Shown in pieces: positions 4,448 to 20,531 of a DNA stretch of 23,215 nucleotides (the stretch's first letter is position 1; each line of letters opens with the position of its first letter). This DNA comes from a virus, in IMG/VR virus record IMGVR_UViG_3300044627_002345, positions 1 through 23,215 of that record. The stretch is one strand, 5' to 3'. The position numbers and the translations under genes were made by a program. Under the pieces are notes generated by a model, which worked only from the letters and a program-made list of their open reading frames with translations, was not told where the DNA came from and searched no databases.

Positions 4448-6757
4448 ATGCAAGAAAAAAGTTATGTATTAGTCGATACTTTCGACAAACTAAAAGACAT
4501 GGTAAATCATGTCAAAGACAAAGAGATTATTGCTTTCGATACCGAGACCAACTCTTTGAACACAAGACAAGGAACCATCATTGGTTTCTCAGTATCAGCA
4601 GAAATCGGTAAAGGCTATTATATGCCTACGGCGGTTTACGACAAAGAAAACAATTCTTTAGTAGACGCTATAATCGATGGTAAAAATTGTCAAGATCTGG
4701 CAAAACAATTCATATCAAAGTTAGTTGGCAAAAAACTAATAATGCACAACGCATCTTTCGACTGTAGATTTGTTAAGTGCTTTTACGGTATAGATTTATT
4801 GCCTAGTCTTTATGTAGATACCATTCTATTGGTACATACGGTAAACGAAGAAGGCGCAGGTTTCGCTTTCGCTAGTCCATTCGGTCTAAAAAGCATTGCG
4901 CAATCCATTCAAAAAGAATTAGGTCTTGATGTAACTAAAGAGGCAAACGAAGAGCAGATCGAATTGAAAACTTCTATCAAAGAAAATGGCGGATCTATTA
5001 CAAGAGAAAGCTACGAGATTTGGAAGGCCGACATAAACATACTTGCTAAATACGCAGCTGCAGATACTGACTTAACATTAAGAGTGTATCATCATTTTAT
5101 TAAAGAGCTTTACGATCAAGGTCTTGAGAAGTTCTTTTTTGAAGATGAGGTTATGCCGCTTTATAGAGAAGTTACAATTCCTATGGAAGAAGTTGGTGTT
5201 AAGCTTGATATAGAAACTATGAAGAAGGCTGATCTAGACATTACCGAAGAGATGAAGAAAAGATCTCACGCAGTAATTTCAGAATTGCTACAAGATAATA
5301 GAGTAAAGCTTTGGATATTAAATAAAGCAAAAGAAACTTACCCAGCAAATAGTAAAGGCGCATTCGCTCAAATGGTTGTAGAAGAGTGTCAATTGCCTTT
5401 ACCTAAATCAGAAAAGACGGGCAAATACAATATTACAAAATCAGAAGTAGCAAGATTACCAGAATCAGCCGCTAAACAATTCTTACTAAACGGTGCAGAT
5501 GTATTAGACGAAGACTTTTCTAACAAAATTAGTATGAAGATGTGGAGAGAAACCAACGACGGTAACTTCTTTAACATTCAGTCTAAAGATCAATTGGGTG
5601 AAATTGCATTCAACGTTCTTGGATTTAAACCATTGTCAAACACAACAAAAGGTAAACCTCAGTTCGATGACGATATGATTCAAGCAATCGCCGAAACTCA
5701 GGAGTGGGCAAAAAATCTAAGAATATATAATAAGCTACTTAAGATCAAGTCTACTTACATAGATCGTTTCTTAAATGCAAGCGAGAATGGAATTTATTAC
5801 TTCTACTACAAACAACATGGTACAGTATCAGGTCGTTATGGATCAGATGCACAACAGTTACCGAGACCGAAAGAAGAAGGCGATGACGATCCAGTAATTA
5901 TCGAATACACAAACTTAGTAAGAGCATTCTTTATTCCAAAAGAAGGCAATATATTTGTAGACTGTGACTATGAGTCTTTGGAGCCTCACGTATTCGCTCA
6001 CGTTTCTGGTGACGATGGTCTTAAGGATATCTTTAGAAACAACTGGGATTTCTATTCCACTATTGCTATCAAAACAGAAGGTCTTAACCAATATTCTGGA
6101 GACAAGAAAGCGGATAACTTTTTAAGAAAGCATGCGCCTAAGAAAAGAAACACAGCAAAAGCATACGCATTAGGTATTCCTTACGGTATGGGCGCTTATG
6201 CTCTTGGAAAGAATATTAACGTTACAACCAAAGAAGCGGATAAATTAGTTAAAGGTTATCTAAGTGGATTTCCAGAACTTGATAAGTGGATGAAGAGATC
6301 AGAAATGGAAGCTAAGACACTAGGCTATGTTAAAACTCAAGTAGGTCGAGTAAGACACTTACCGAAAGTAAAAGCTATCTACGAAAATATAGGTGATAAT
6401 TTACTAGACTGGAATTTCAAAAGAAAACTAGAGTACGAATTTGGTAAAGATCAAGTAAAGAATCTAAGTAGAGACTTTATCAATGGTCTAAACAACGCTA
6501 AAAACGTACAGATCCAGGGACTATCTGCGTCTATCGTAAACAGAGCTGCAATGGAAATCAATAGAGAATTTAAGAAGAGAGGAATAAACGGCTGGGTGTG
6601 CGCCCAAATACATGACCAGATCGTTTGCGAAGTGCCTAAAGAACACGCTGAAGAAGCCGCTAAGATTGTACAAGACAAAATGGAAAACACTACAAAGTTA
6701 AGTATTGCATTAAAAGCACCACCAGCAATTGCTCACAACTTACGAGATGGTCACTAA
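4448..6757 (+). CDS. polA: DNA polymerase I family (PolA) with 3'-5' exonuclease, no 5'-3' exonuclease
   Basis: Family A replicative polymerase of 769 aa. The proofreading exonuclease domain (about 1-220) keeps its acidic residues: DTE (D31, E33), NASFD (D105) and YAAAD (Y202, D206). The polymerase domain shows TVSGR (459-463), motif A with D507-Y508 followed by ESLE, motif B around R567, K571, Y579, and motif C HDQ (H722, D723, Q724). The residue matching E. coli Phe762 is Leu575 (K571+4), a change seen in many viral PolA proteins, and the usual HDE of motif C reads HDQ. No 5' nuclease domain is present, as in T7-like polymerases. A TTG two codons upstream is in frame, but ATG 4448 is the better start. 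It follows a clear TATATTTG promoter-like box. It probably copies the phage genome with the helicase. Confidence 0.95.
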   Translation: MQEKSYVLVDTFDKLKDMVNHVKDKEIIAFDTETNSLNTRQGTIIGFSVSAEIGKGYYMPTAVYDKENNSLVDAIIDGKNCQDLAKQFISKLVGKKLIMHNASFDCRFVKCFYGIDLLPSLYVDTILLVHTVNEEGAGFAFASPFGLKSIAQSIQKELGLDVTKEANEEQIELKTSIKENGGSITRESYEIWKADINILAKYAAADTDLTLRVYHHFIKELYDQGLEKFFFEDEVMPLYREVTIPMEEVGVKLDIETMKKADLDITEEMKKRSHAVISELLQDNRVKLWILNKAKETYPANSKGAFAQMVVEECQLPLPKSEKTGKYNITKSEVARLPESAAKQFLLNGADVLDEDFSNKISMKMWRETNDGNFFNIQSKDQLGEIAFNVLGFKPLSNTTKGKPQFDDDMIQAIAETQEWAKNLRIYNKLLKIKSTYIDRFLNASENGIYYFYYKQHGTVSGRYGSDAQQLPRPKEEGDDDPVIIEYTNLVRAFFIPKEGNIFVDCDYESLEPHVFAHVSGDDGLKDIFRNNWDFYSTIAIKTEGLNQYSGDKKADNFLRKHAPKKRNTAKAYALGIPYGMGAYALGKNINVTTKEADKLVKGYLSGFPELDKWMKRSEMEAKTLGYVKTQVGRVRHLPKVKAIYENIGDNLLDWNFKRKLEYEFGKDQVKNLSRDFINGLNNAKNVQIQGLSASIVNRAAMEINREFKKRGINGWVCAQIHDQIVCEVPKEHAEEAAKIVQDKMENTTKLSIALKAPPAIAHNLRDGH

Positions 6758-6852: not shown

Positions 6853-6864
6853 CCTAAAACACAC

Positions 6865-6872
6865 AGGAGGTG
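6865..6872 (+). promoter_or_regulatory. Strong Shine-Dalgarno site for hsp20
   Basis: AGGAGGTG, a near-complete anti-SD complement, ends 4 nt before the ATG at 6877 (6 nt from the end of GGAGG). Almost no other gene in the window has such a site, which makes it stand out in a Bacteroidetes-type setting. Confidence 0.75.
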
Positions 6873-6876
6873 TACA

Positions 6877-7317
6877 ATGACAAGATTAGCACATTGGGGA
6901 GTCGACCCATTTGATCTTCTATGGAAGAATCTATTCGACCAAAATTCTAACTTCTCAACAATCGCAGAGAAGATTTCTTATCCACTAGACATTTACGAAA
7001 AACAAGACGGTATCGTATTCGAACTTGCAGCAGTAGGTTTGGACTACGAAGATATCGATATCGAAGTGCAAGGTGATGTTCTTCGCATTAAATATGCAAA
7101 ATCAAAAGAGGAAGAATCGGTAACAAATTATATCCACAAAGGAATCGCAAGAAGATCTTTCGATTTGGCTTGGAAAATTGCTTCCAAGTTCGATCTAACT
7201 TCTTTAGAAGCTACCATCGATAAAGGACTTTTAAAAATTGAAATTCCATTATCAGACGAAAGTTTACCAAAGAAAATTCAAATCAAACCAAAGACGTTAC
7301 TTCAAGTTAACGCCTAA
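6877..7317 (+). CDS. hsp20: Small heat-shock protein, Hsp20/alpha-crystallin family
   Basis: A 146-aa holdase-type chaperone that would bind unfolding proteins in the cytoplasm without ATP. The alpha-crystallin domain spans about residues 35-125 (YPLDIYEKQDGIVFEL to GLLKIEIPL), with the family's G-x-L motif at 117-119 (GLL) and the C-terminal I-x-I tail motif (IQI, 134-136) that links oligomers. The short N-terminus with DPFDLLW is typical of phage and bacterial Hsp20. It leads a cassette of hsp20, a small gene, groES and groEL. It is the only gene here with a strong SD, and it is bracketed by inverted repeats, so its expression is probably controlled separately from the downstream genes. Confidence 0.93.
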   Translation: MTRLAHWGVDPFDLLWKNLFDQNSNFSTIAEKISYPLDIYEKQDGIVFELAAVGLDYEDIDIEVQGDVLRIKYAKSKEEESVTNYIHKGIARRSFDLAWKIASKFDLTSLEATIDKGLLKIEIPLSDESLPKKIQIKPKTLLQVNA

Positions 7318-11785: not shown

Positions 11786-12673
11786 ATGTTTTTAAACAAA
11801 GCAACAGATGAATCTAATTTAGACATGTCAGATGGTAGAGACTTAAACTACTATCTTGACATGACTAAAGATTACAAACACGATTTTACATTTAAAGTAA
11901 AAGACGTAGAAGGCTTTAAAGTTGTCGATGATGGAGAATTCCAATTCGGAACTAAAGCAAAAATGGCAGACTTCTTCATATCTCAAGTAAAAGAAGATGC
12001 GATGGTTTATGTTGCACCAAGAACAGGTTACGCTCCTTATTCTTTGTGTCATTTAGCAAAGAAGTACAATAAAAAATTGTATCTAGTTATGCCAGCTTCT
12101 AAAGAGGCATCAGAGCACCAGTTAACAGCAATAGAAAATGGTGGAATTCCAATGTTTACTAGAATACCTGCAATGCCAACAGCAAATATTTGGGCAAAGC
12201 AATTCGCAGAAAAAATTGGAGGAAAGTATTTACCTTTTGGATTAAAGCACGAAATGGTGGTTGCTGGTGGAGTTAGAGTATTTTACGATAACTTCAAAGA
12301 CACCGATATTGAAACCATGTGGAGTGTATTCTCTACTGGAGTTTTATCTCGCACTTTACAGATCGCGCTACCAAAAACTAAATTCAATGCTGTGGCCGTG
12401 GCAAGAAACATTCAAGAAGGAGAACTTGGTAGAGCTAAATTCTACACTCACGACAGAGCGTTCTTAAAACCTTCAAGGATACAGACTCCTTTTGATTCTA
12501 TACAAACATACGATGCAAAAGGTTGGGAACTCCTAAAGCAACATGGGCAGCAAGGGGATTGGTTTTGGAACGTAGCAGGAAATATGCCTAAACCTACAAT
12601 AAAACCTAGTGACATCGATTCAAGTCGCGAGTGGGGAGACTTTAAAGATTTTGAAAAGCACTACAAAGATTAG
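11786..12673 (+). CDS. Protein resembling fold-type II PLP enzymes (ACC deaminase/tryptophan synthase beta-like)
   Basis: The order of segments resembles the ACC-deaminase branch of fold-type II PLP enzymes: FGTKAKMADFF (53-64; K57 at the place of the PLP lysine in GNKxRK), a strand and loop MVYVAPRTGYAPYSLCHLAKK, a strand KKLYLVMPA, then GGKYLPFGLKHE and a later FSTGVLSRTLQIAL segment matching the phosphate-binding GTG loop region. The length of 295 aa is near the family norm (~330). No signal peptide is present. It begins 3 nt after the lipoprotein gene. A substrate cannot be named. PLP enzymes occur in phage DNA hypermodification pathways, and a dCMP hydroxymethylase-like gene lies nearby, but the link is speculative. 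It may also be a non-catalytic relative. Confidence 0.45.
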   Translation: MFLNKATDESNLDMSDGRDLNYYLDMTKDYKHDFTFKVKDVEGFKVVDDGEFQFGTKAKMADFFISQVKEDAMVYVAPRTGYAPYSLCHLAKKYNKKLYLVMPASKEASEHQLTAIENGGIPMFTRIPAMPTANIWAKQFAEKIGGKYLPFGLKHEMVVAGGVRVFYDNFKDTDIETMWSVFSTGVLSRTLQIALPKTKFNAVAVARNIQEGELGRAKFYTHDRAFLKPSRIQTPFDSIQTYDAKGWELLKQHGQQGDWFWNVAGNMPKPTIKPSDIDSSREWGDFKDFEKHYKD

Positions 12674-16320: not shown

Positions 16321-16374
16321 ATTAACTTATTGTTAACGAAGTGTTAATATAATCCATAAAATATTTATCAAGGT

Positions 16375-16392
16375 AACGGAATTCTTTCCGTT
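16375..16392 (+). repeat. Perfect hairpin in receptor leader
   Basis: AACGGAA, loop TTCT, TTCCGTT: a 7-bp perfect stem starting about 8 nt after the promoter-like AATATTTA box. No U run follows, so it is not a terminator; it could stabilise the RNA 5' end or be part of a regulatory fold. Confidence 0.55.
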
Positions 16393-16488
16393 GTGTTACG
16401 ACAATATATGAATATACAATACAAAATAAATACGTATAATTCTCAATATCGATTGCAATTGCGATCTAACTTTTTATCAACATACAAG

Positions 16489-16520
16489 AACGCGGTGGTC
16501 CAAATGATCCCGCGTTTTTT
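16489..16520 (+). terminator. Terminator or attenuator before the receptor gene
   Basis: AACGCGG (16489-16495) pairs with CCGCGTT (16510-16516), with an inner GGTC/GATC extension across a single bulge and a CAAAT loop; a T run continues to 16520. It has all features of an intrinsic terminator, yet lies only 25 nt before the receptor ATG with no promoter between, which points to conditional readthrough. Confidence 0.8.
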
Positions 16521-16545
16521 ATTTTTTAACAAAAACAAAACAAAC

Positions 16546-19500
16546 ATGAAAAAAGCGATTTTATCGTTAGTTCTTTCTGCGTTTGCTTTGGTAGGATTCG
16601 GTCAAGTTACCTCATCCACCATTTCAGGCGTAGTCAAGAATGAAAAGCAGGAAGTGTTAGGTGGAACTACGGTTCACGCTGTTCACGTCCCAACAGGTAC
16701 TCAGTACAAGACAGTGACAAACAAAATGGGTGTGTACGTTTTACCTGCTGTAAGAGTAGGTGGTCCTTACACTATCCACGCAACTTTTGTAGGATACAAA
16801 ATGGGCGAAGTAAAAGAAGTTAGCACTCAATTAGGCGTTACTTCTAACGTAGATTTTTCTCTAATCGATGAGAAGACTGCTCTTAAAGAAGTAGTTGTAG
16901 TAGGAACCAGAAATAATCTTTTTTCTAAGGAAAAAACTGGAGCTGCTCAACAATTTTCTCGTAGAGAATTGCAATCTGTGCCAATCACAGGAGCTAGAAC
17001 TATCGATGGTATTACAAAGTATAATCCATTCGGTAACGGTAACTCATTCGGAGCACAAGATTCTCGTTTGAATAACTTCACTATTGACGGATCTCAATTT
17101 AATAACAACTTCGGTTTAGGATCTTCTGCTCAAGCGGGTGGTAGAACTGGAGCAAGCGCTATTTCATTGGATGCGATTGATCAATTACAAGTTAACGTTG
17201 CGCCTTTCGATATTCGTCAATCAGGATTTACTGGTGCAGGTATCAACGCTGTAACAAGATCAGGTACAAATGAAATTGAAGGATCAGTTTATCAAACGCA
17301 AAGAGACAATAGTTCTACTTACGTTGGTAACAATGCAAGAGGTACAAAAATTACTCCTGCTAAATTTGATGAAAAAGTGCAAGGTTTCCGTTTAGGCGCA
17401 CCAATTATTAAAAACAAATTATTTATTTTTGGTAACTATGAAGGTATTCAAAGAACTGAACCAGGCACAACTTGGACATCTACAGGTTCTCCATTACCAG
17501 GTTCACAAGTAAGTAGACCAACTTTCCAACAATTGACTGACCTTTCTAAATTTATGAAAGAGAAGTTTAATTATGAAACTGGTCCATTTGAAGGATATTC
17601 TAATACAAACACGTCTAATAAATTCTTAGTTCGTGTTGACTGGAATATTAACGCAAACAATAAATTGACTGCTCGTTATGTGTATCATAATTCTGAAGCG
17701 CAAATCAATATTTCAAATTCACAATCAGCCGGTTTCGGTAATAGAACACAGAACATCAATGCGATGAGTTTCCAAAATAGTGGTTATACTATTCAGGACA
17801 ACACTCGTTCAGCGGTATTGGAATTAAACTCTAAGATTTCAAATACGTTATACAATAACTTAATTGTATCGTATGATAAGCAAATTGAGAATAGAGGTTA
17901 TATGTCTCAAATGTTCCCAACGATTGACATCAAAGAAGGTTCAACTACGTTAACTTCTGTAGGATTCGATCCATTCACTCCAGGTAATAAGTTAGATTAT
18001 AATACTTTTAATGTAACTAACAATTTAACAAAATATGCTGGTAAGCATACTTTAGTTGGCGGTTTCAACTTTCAAAAGTATCAATCAAATAACTTATTCT
18101 TCCCTGCATCTAATGGTGTTTATATTTTCAATAGCTTAGCAGATTTCTACACCGCGGCTAATCAATCATTAGCAAATGGTGGTAAACCATCCGCATTTGC
18201 TCCAGCTCGTTTTCAGTTTAGATATTCTGCATTACCAGGAGCAATTGAACCAATGCAAACTTTAAAATCAAATAGATTAGACTTATACTTACAAGACGAG
18301 TACAATGCAACTAGAGATTTAAAATTGACTTTTGGTATTAGAGCAAACATTATTGATTTTGAAAATACTGCATTAGAAAATCCAGCAGTAACAGCAATGA
18401 CTTTTGCAAACGGTGAAAAATGGAATACGGGTGTAATGCCTAAGATGCAAGTATTATTTGAACCAAGATTAGGTTTCAACTACGACTTGAAAGGACAAAA
18501 GAAAACTCAATTTAGAGGTGGTACAGGTGTATTCACAGGTCGTCCTCCTTATGTATTCTTATCGAATCAAATCGGTAACAATGGAGTGTTAACTGGATTT
18601 ATTGACGTAAGCGGTACTGCAGCGGCACAATATGGTTTCACTGCTGACCCTAACAAGTACTTTATTCCATCGACTCCAACTTTGCCTTCAACATTTGATT
18701 TAGCATTAACAGATCCTAACTACAAATTTCCTCAAGTTTGGAAAACAAATTTGGCAATTGATCAAAAGTTACCATTCTTTGGATTAGTAGCAACAGCTGA
18801 ATATTTGTACAATAGAACATTGAATGCGGTTCATTACTACGAAGCTAACTTAAGAGCTCCAGTTGGAACTTTAGGCGGAGTGGATAACAGACCTCGTTTT
18901 GGTGGTACAGATGCTACAGTAAGAGTAAATAACAATGTGAGTAGAGCAGCAGTTCTTACAAGTAGAAACGGAGCTTATCACGAATCATTGACATTGAAAT
19001 TAGAGAAGCCTTATCAAAAAGGTTTATGGGGATCATTTGCTTGGACTACAGCTAACTCAAAAGACTTTATGAGTGCAGGTTCAATCGCTAGTGGTTCATG
19101 GCAGTCAGCGTTATCAGTTGCTGGTAACAACAATTTAGATTTGTCATTCGCAGACGCATTTGTTAAAAACAGATTCGTAGGTTTATTAGGTTACAGAATT
19201 GAATACGGTTCTAAATACGGCGGAGCTACTACAATCACTTTAGGTTACGTAGGTCAGCAAGGCAATCCATTCTCTTATATCGTAGCAGGCGACTTAAATG
19301 GTGATAGAGTAAATAATAATGATTTAATTTACGTTCCTAAAGAATGGAATGAAATTAGATTCGCGCCATTAACAGTTGGTACAAGAGTATATACAGAAGC
19401 AGAACAACAAGCTGCATTTTGGAATTTTGTAAACCAAGACGATTATTTAAAAACTCGTAATGGTAAATACGCAGAAAGAAATGGCGGTTTATTACCGTAC

Positions 19501-19824
19501 TTGCATAGATTTGACTTATCAGTAGCTCAAGACATTTTTGTTAAGATTGGTGGAAAGAGAAATGCTTTCCAAATCAGAGCAGATATCTTGAACTTTGGTA
19601 ATATGATTGATAATAAGTTTGGAGTATCTCAAAGAGCAACTGCTCCTCAAATCTTGAATTTTGTAAGCAGAGATGCTGTAACAAATGTTCCAACATTTAG
19701 ATTGGCAACTCAAAGATTGACTGATGGCTCTACTATTTTAGTAAGAGATTCTTATCAGTACAATTCATCAGTATTTGATGTATGGTCAGCACAATTAGGT
19801 ATTAGATACATTTTTGGTAGATAA
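16546..19824 (+). CDS. TonB-dependent outer-membrane receptor, Oar-like, with carboxypeptidase-regulatory-like domain
   Basis: The 1092-aa protein has a signal peptide (1-20, ending FGQ), a carboxypeptidase-regulatory-like domain (about 25-108; TISGVVKNEKQEVLGGTTV), a linker EVVVVGTR (115-122), a plug domain (about 130-250) and a long beta-barrel ending in LGIRYIFGR, an aromatic-rich BAM signal. DLNGDRVNNNDLIYVP near the end is typical of Oar-like receptors of Bacteroidetes. It would sit in the outer membrane and import or bind a large substrate using TonB energy; the ligand is unknown. I choose ATG 16546 because the frame extended to GTG 16393 crosses the terminator hairpin and lacks a signal peptide. 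The gene is bracketed by terminators. Codon choice looks like that of its neighbours, so a very recent transfer is not evident. Such a gene beside replication genes is highly unusual. Confidence 0.9.
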   Translation: MKKAILSLVLSAFALVGFGQVTSSTISGVVKNEKQEVLGGTTVHAVHVPTGTQYKTVTNKMGVYVLPAVRVGGPYTIHATFVGYKMGEVKEVSTQLGVTSNVDFSLIDEKTALKEVVVVGTRNNLFSKEKTGAAQQFSRRELQSVPITGARTIDGITKYNPFGNGNSFGAQDSRLNNFTIDGSQFNNNFGLGSSAQAGGRTGASAISLDAIDQLQVNVAPFDIRQSGFTGAGINAVTRSGTNEIEGSVYQTQRDNSSTYVGNNARGTKITPAKFDEKVQGFRLGAPIIKNKLFIFGNYEGIQRTEPGTTWTSTGSPLPGSQVSRPTFQQLTDLSKFMKEKFNYETGPFEGYSNTNTSNKFLVRVDWNINANNKLTARYVYHNSEAQINISNSQSAGFGNRTQNINAMSFQNSGYTIQDNTRSAVLELNSKISNTLYNNLIVSYDKQIENRGYMSQMFPTIDIKEGSTTLTSVGFDPFTPGNKLDYNTFNVTNNLTKYAGKHTLVGGFNFQKYQSNNLFFPASNGVYIFNSLADFYTAANQSLANGGKPSAFAPARFQFRYSALPGAIEPMQTLKSNRLDLYLQDEYNATRDLKLTFGIRANIIDFENTALENPAVTAMTFANGEKWNTGVMPKMQVLFEPRLGFNYDLKGQKKTQFRGGTGVFTGRPPYVFLSNQIGNNGVLTGFIDVSGTAAAQYGFTADPNKYFIPSTPTLPSTFDLALTDPNYKFPQVWKTNLAIDQKLPFFGLVATAEYLYNRTLNAVHYYEANLRAPVGTLGGVDNRPRFGGTDATVRVNNNVSRAAVLTSRNGAYHESLTLKLEKPYQKGLWGSFAWTTANSKDFMSAGSIASGSWQSALSVAGNNNLDLSFADAFVKNRFVGLLGYRIEYGSKYGGATTITLGYVGQQGNPFSYIVAGDLNGDRVNNNDLIYVPKEWNEIRFAPLTVGTRVYTEAEQQAAFWNFVNQDDYLKTRNGKYAERNGGLLPYLHRFDLSVAQDIFVKIGGKRNAFQIRADILNFGNMIDNKFGVSQRATAPQILNFVSRDAVTNVPTFRLATQRLTDGSTILVRDSYQYNSSVFDVWSAQLGIRYIFGR

Positions 19825-19848: not shown

Positions 19849-19877
19849 AGTGGAGGTCAAAAGCCTCCACTTTTTTT
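19849..19877 (+). terminator. Strong intrinsic terminator after the receptor gene
   Basis: AGTGGAGG (19849-19856), loop TCAAAAG, CCTCCACT (19864-19871): a perfect 8-bp stem followed by T residues to 19877. It lies 24 nt after the receptor stop. Confidence 0.92.
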
Positions 19878-19882
19878 GTGTC

Positions 19883-19890
19883 TATATTTA
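19883..19890 (+). promoter_or_regulatory. TATATTTA box before the secreted nuclease gene
   Basis: The box lies between the terminator T run (ends 19877) and the ATG at 19896. Only 18 nt separate terminator and start codon, so transcription of the next gene must begin here or read through; if this is the -7 element the mRNA is leaderless. Confidence 0.45.
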
Positions 19891-19895
19891 TATGC

Positions 19896-20531
19896 ATGAA
19901 ACAAACATTATTTTTTATCTGTTTACTATTCGCCTTAGCAGTAAACGGTCAGGACACGGTTAGAATTCACCATAAGGAGTTCACTACAGTTTACTCAAAA
20001 TCAAAGAAGTATCCAGTGCTTGTAGAGTGGTACGCGACTAAAGCAAAAATAGGATGCCCTACTCCATTAGCAAGAAAAGATCAATTCGCACCAGATCCTC
20101 AAATTAGAGCAGAATCGGATATAGCGAAAGATTATGTTGGTTCTGGAACAGATCGTGGCCACATGAGCCCTGCAGCTGATAATTTATGTTCAGGAGCAGA
20201 GGTACAGAAGGAATGTTTCTATTTTACTAATATGTCTCCCCAATATCACAGTTTAAACGCAGGAGATTGGAAATCACTTGAAACTTTGACTAGAAGTTTA
20301 GCAATGCAATACGATAGTGTACACGTATGGGCAGGTAATATAGGCGAAGCCAAAAAAATTGGTAGAGTTTCTGTTCCTACTATTTGTTGGAAAGTGATTT
20401 ACATTAAGAAGACTAAAGAGTACATGGCTTATATGTTTGACAATAATACAAGCAAGCCAGATGGCCTTAATAACAATAAGGTTACTTTGGAAGATATAGA
20501 GAAGTTAACTCACTTCAAATTTAAAGATTAA
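19896..20531 (+). CDS. Secreted DNA/RNA non-specific endonuclease (beta-beta-alpha-metal, NucA/Serratia type)
   Basis: A 211-aa protein with a signal peptide (MKQTLFFICLLFALAVNGQ, cleavage near residue 19) and the Endonuclease_NS motif DRGHMSPAADN (D86-R87-G88-H89; H89 is the general base). Downstream, FTNMSPQYHSLNAGDW supplies the magnesium-binding Asn (N121), followed by LE (E129), as in Serratia nuclease relatives. It would hydrolyse DNA and RNA in the periplasm or outside the cell. No immunity or inhibitor gene is obvious next to it, in keeping with export. ATG 19896 is chosen; a GTG at 19878 in frame abuts the terminator and would spoil the signal peptide. It could degrade incoming phage DNA or released host nucleic acid; the role is inference. 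Confidence 0.92.
   Translation: MKQTLFFICLLFALAVNGQDTVRIHHKEFTTVYSKSKKYPVLVEWYATKAKIGCPTPLARKDQFAPDPQIRAESDIAKDYVGSGTDRGHMSPAADNLCSGAEVQKECFYFTNMSPQYHSLNAGDWKSLETLTRSLAMQYDSVHVWAGNIGEAKKIGRVSVPTICWKVIYIKKTKEYMAYMFDNNTSKPDGLNNNKVTLEDIEKLTHFKFKD

Follow-up and report, generated by a model that had tools for sequence, protein, structure and literature searches.

Terminator-based attenuators are the closest described systems to the locus considered here. Leader-peptide attenuators have been inferred in Flavobacterium psychrophilum (PMC9723704), and terminator-based attenuators share with the present locus a promoter and a transcribed leader, both predicted here, and an intrinsic terminator just ahead of the gene. 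The locus differs from them in several aspects: no leader peptide, ligand site or antiterminator was found for the window type, the stems are not conserved between groups, and the arrangement is phage-borne and stands before an outer-membrane receptor. A phage-borne TonB-dependent receptor of the SusC type is also carried by a marine megaphage, for which increased carbohydrate uptake was suggested (PMC9723777). The likeness lies in the phage-borne TonB-dependent receptor itself, and the comparison covers gene content; the window receptor is of the OMP_b-brl_4/CarboxypepD_reg type instead of the SusC type. Little was found in the literature on phage TonB receptors and on the promoters of Flavobacterium phage immuto.

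The window, which is the whole stretch of DNA analysed, is the 23,215-base virus record IMGVR_UViG_3300044627_002345, and it encodes a DNA polymerase that shares 55% identity with the immuto enzyme. Homologues of its receptor are widespread among viral contigs, the longest of which measure up to 321 kb. The reading set out below, namely that the receptor lies behind an attenuator-like leader and is made by read-through, is given a little more than an even chance of being right.

The leader and its terminator hairpin

The features of the locus are collected in Table 1. Ahead of the receptor lies a GC-rich stem-loop with a U tract directly behind it, which is the sequence signature of an intrinsic (Rho-independent) terminator. 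The hairpin has a folding energy of -16.9 kcal/mol (z -4.65), and none of 200 dinucleotide shuffles was equally stable, which confirms the claim of an earlier note on this DNA that a terminator hairpin with a U run sits just before the receptor ATG. Standard sigma-70 and simple terminator scans of the window were uninformative; the latter did not list this hairpin, probably because of its bulged stem. Within the A-rich stretch that follows, TTTTTWAAMNAAAA occurs mostly only at the receptor (17 phage contigs).

Table 1. Features of the receptor locus, in window coordinates
Feature	Position	Strand	Basis or remark
Upstream gene, 85 aa	16063..16320	+	weak match, Rz-like spanin family phrog_739, E=1.6e-4
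Putative phage promoter box ATATTTAT, predicted start 16373	16361..16368	+	enriched motif; kept in L014, L099, L101
Hairpin at the predicted 5' end of the leader RNA	16374..16393	+	stem with small changes in L014, L099, L101
Near-palindrome GATTGCAATTGCGATC	16451..16466	.	z -3.4, 3/200 shuffles
Intrinsic terminator hairpin	16489..16516	+	AACGCGG-U-GGUC-CAAAU-GAUC-CCGCGUU
U tract TTTTTTATTTTTT	16515..16527	+	first two T pair within the stem
Conserved A-rich stretch AACAAAAACAAAACAAAC, 18-nt gap up to ATG 16546	16528..16545	+	alignment
TonB-dependent-receptor-like outer-membrane protein	16546..19824	+	OMP_b-brl_4 1.1e-52, CarboxypepD_reg 4.7e-14
Terminator after the receptor gene, GTGGAGG..CCTCCAC + T run	19850..19877	+	read in sequence, also detected by hairpin scans

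The whole 225-nt leader also folds beyond chance (z -3.05, 0/200 shuffles). The 16-bp near-palindrome described earlier was found again, and it is unchanged in all four aligned window-type leaders, so that it offers no variation with which to test pairing. A second upstream hairpin, described earlier as perfect, does exist, but its eight pairs include one U-G, and its z of only -2.0 (8/200 shuffles) is weak evidence taken alone.

An Rfam search gave no gathering-level match in the window, and a plastid intron match was at chance level (E=0.8); no known riboswitch or RNA family was thus matched to the leader. No stable fold competing for the 5' arm of the terminator was found in the window leader, and a weak five-pair alternative appeared when the 3' arm was withheld. 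The proposal of a ligand-responsive leader consequently gained no support. Nor was any specific condition for receptor expression supported.

An open reading frame from 16408 stays open through the terminator hairpin and was considered as a leader peptide or an N-terminal extension of the receptor. Neither role is supported: its codon changes fall mainly at positions 1 and 2, with no third-position bias in the window group, and the receptor has a signal-peptide-like start (MKKAILSLVLSAFALVGFGQ) at 16546.

Conservation across phage receptors

Homologous phage receptors of 47-94% identity provided 63 distinct leaders, and 48 of these have a hairpin with a U tract 24-50 nt before the ATG; as the leaders share ancestry, the counts are not independent events. 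The relatives, in which genes are simple ORF calls, hence keep the hairpin, and the reading in the earlier note passes the conservation check that it had set for itself. Its stem sequences are unrelated between groups, and the genes upstream differ too. The stem of group 1, the window type, is AACGCGG..CCGCGTT. Group 2 has GAGCGGGG..CTCCGCTC behind a nuclease-type gene, a label resting on position, as in immuto an annotated PD-(D/E)XK gene is followed, 31 nt ahead of the next gene, by the promoter box described below. The stem of group 3 (GGGTGG..CCACCC) follows an H1-like gene (PF07432, E=2e-4, just under the curated cut-off). In group 4 it is ATCCCG..CGGGAT, with a tmRNA gene upstream in five of the six loci checked.

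Compensatory changes were found at seven stem positions (group 3, four; group 2, three), counted from hand-aligned stem arms because MAFFT misplaced some stems. The window type has one-sided changes only. The hairpin was absent in the cellular homologues examined, including four at 57-67% identity, which speaks against a host-derived leader. In leader L022 (about 5760-6000), a 39-codon ORF with no family match ends within the terminator hairpin before the receptor.

Putative promoter box and proposed transcription of the receptor

T4-type late promoters consist of an AT-rich box, TATAAATA in T4, which lacks a conserved -35 element and is present in many copies. A similar box, ATATTTAT, was found de novo in the upstream regions of a 179-kb relative, a 118-kb relative and the window, with 54 occurrences against 4.4 expected. 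No -35 is conserved with it, and a purine lies 12 nt downstream in 96% of the sites, which suggests a start at +12. This 8-mer may be read as the phage promoter, and it would be of a late type by analogy only; it differs in sequence from the T4 box, and a Sigma70_r2 profile search for a phage sigma factor found none in four phages. For a large group of Bacteroidota phages, most of them uncultured, the box as defined here would point to start sites open to testing. Past the receptor terminator (window 19849-19896), another copy at 19884-19891 places the predicted start on the A of the ATG at 19896, so that the nuclease mRNA may be leaderless; the same box-to-ATG spacing recurs at other genes in the relatives.

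The copy upstream of the receptor, which is only a moderate match (4.4 bits), had been missed earlier. It predicts an RNA of about 150 nt up to the hairpin and so agrees with the proposed leader RNA of about 140 nt, for which action as a separate RNA is a minor reading. In 12 hairpin leaders, the window included, such a box precedes the hairpin and no annotated gene separates the two. The distance from box to ATG is mostly below 60 nt in these phages; receptor leaders have a longer one, of 184-185 nt in the window type and of 110-125 nt in the other groups having a box.

The gap between terminator and ATG was said to contain no promoter box, which holds against the modelled phage promoter: over the last 45 nt the highest score reached is 0.8 bits, under the shuffle median of 1.9. 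No recognisable promoter is present in the gap of 31 of the 48 hairpin leaders, the window among them. Ordinary terminator-plus-promoter gaps in these phages likewise have a hairpin and U tract 20-50 nt before the next ATG. Among the 378 genes called across two relatives and the window, 15 have a hairpin so placed (a frequency not strictly comparable with that of the leader survey, as the threshold was -9 kcal/mol here and -7 kcal/mol there). For nearly all of these 15 genes the gap contains the promoter box or else a sigma-A-like one, whereas the usual box is missing at the receptor. Both receptors on the list have no gap box (two and three mismatches to it), and the same is true of G011:9227; the window receptor was left out only because the simple gene caller began its frame at 16408. 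Among hairpin-less leaders, a close promoter was found in L154 (ATATTTAT at 34 nt), L136 and L195 (both CGTATATT) and L019 (TACCTTTG). By these criteria L109, L098/L149, L152/L175 and L204/L205 have neither hairpin nor close promoter, and weaker hairpins are present in L109, L098 and L152/L175.

These features suggest that polymerase would start from the box at 16361-16368 and transcribe a leader of about 150 nt up to the terminator at 16489-16527, where most transcripts would end, and read-through would yield the receptor mRNA. From the sequence we infer that the box is used, that transcription actually terminates, and that most receptor mRNA comes from read-through. Computation itself gives the terminator and its conservation, compensatory changes included, together with the box upstream and a gap lacking any recognisable promoter. 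Passage of transcription through the hairpin, as the earlier note proposed, is the most economical reading of these features, with a poor promoter in the U tract as the less likely alternative. The hairpin is beyond chance and is retained with unrelated stems behind different genes; other terminator-preceded genes have a gap promoter where the receptors do not, and several hairpin-less relatives have a close one. Counting against read-through are the moderate score of the window box, the lack of any antiterminator, ligand site or leader peptide for the window type, and the end of the group 3 gene 4-12 nt before the hairpin, as with an ordinary terminator. A T stretch containing TTTAT is also kept in L010, L098, L109 and L019, where the hairpin is weak or absent. 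A constant leak is as likely as a switch, since no stable alternative fold, RNA family or coding signal in the window-group leader ORF was found. If read-through is correct, a widespread phage-borne outer-membrane receptor would be restrained by a conserved terminator and not through the choice of promoter, in contrast to its neighbours with their simple promoters. This would then offer a way to ask why such receptors are carried by phages and at what point they are made.

The main rival takes the hairpin as an ordinary terminator of upstream transcription and the T-rich stretch (TTTTTTATTTTTTAAC) as a degenerate phage promoter, from which a short mRNA would start near AAC. Terminator-then-promoter order is common in these phages, and a start near AAC would yield a typical short 5' UTR. 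The T-rich stretch before AAC is retained even in leaders with a weak or missing hairpin; L154, which has no hairpin, carries a full ATATTTAT in register with it, and a TATTTAT core lies in the gap of about 15 hairpin leaders, nearly all from group 4. The window gap, however, scores at null level, departing from the box at two well-conserved positions and lacking a purine at +12, and the motif is lost altogether in L001, L002, L012 and L015. In L140, L148 and L191 the ATTTTTTAAC unit is separated from the U tract and has no TTTAT, and in L019 and L195 it lies downstream of another promoter-like box, like a 5' UTR element. In one group-4 phage, over 120 kb, the box takes the form VTATTTAT, and among 38 copies the receptor's alone has T first. 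The upstream box would moreover be left without a role. A promoter of its own within the U tract is considered rather unlikely for the receptor.

There is a small chance that the leader serves chiefly as a small RNA, about 150 nt long, with a target elsewhere; the terminator would then be its 3' end and receptor read-through incidental. The promoter box, the structured 5' end and the terminator would suit such an RNA, as would the approximately 60 nt ahead of the terminator, which are nearly invariant among window-type relatives; but leaders of different groups cannot be aligned, the promoter, the hairpin and the stretch before the ATG being all that recurs, and no Rfam family was matched. It is similarly improbable that the main role of the hairpin lies in stability or regulation of the receptor mRNA (by processing, protection of the 5' end or control of translation), with hardly any termination, for instance because late phage transcription passes it: a start at 16373 would place it in a long 5' UTR, right ahead of the conserved A-rich initiation region, yet the conserved U tract directly behind the stem is a termination signature, unlike a plain 5' UTR hairpin.

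Group 4 leaders and further genes

In Flavobacterium johnsoniae, bS21 helps to hide the anti-Shine-Dalgarno, and it is chiefly in the absence of bS21 that Flavobacterium ribosomes use Shine-Dalgarno sites (PMC9976891). In Bacteroidetes phages, expression of the phage-encoded bS21 is late (PMC9723584). Group 4 is a distant subgroup of the leaders. Ten of its 16 distinct leaders have a GGAGA/GGGGA Shine-Dalgarno-like sequence before a short ORF, between the promoter-like TATACTTAT and the terminator, whereas such a motif was found at only 3 of 146 genes over 120 kb of one group-4 phage. These ORFs are often Tyr/Phe-rich and reach up to or through the terminator. The protein bS21 is encoded by five of ten receptor-carrying phages tested, two of which (L153 and L155) have group-4 leaders. 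A family of translation-sensing attenuators before Bacteroidota-phage receptors, whose leader would read ribosome composition and of which the window leader would be a version without a Shine-Dalgarno site, is nonetheless very improbable. The short ORFs are a lead only, because pairwise comparison shows changes unlike those of protein-coding sequence and because the leaders are themselves related, and the lead does not apply directly to the window.

The bS21-encoding contigs are G017, G018, G019, G020 and G021 (of L022, L097, L153, L151 and L155, respectively). Phage-borne tmRNA genes lie directly upstream of the receptor leader in L153, L158, L177, L189 and L206, and in L158 a tRNA-Glu stands between the tmRNA gene and the leader. 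In the window phage, Shine-Dalgarno sequences are rare (2 of 26 genes); the gene at 6877, a small heat-shock protein by the look of its sequence, has a perfect one, ACAGGAGGTGTACAATG (6858-6877). The protein encoded at 11786-12673 of the window matches a PHROG annotated as threonine dehydratase (E=2e-21), an unusual phage cargo.
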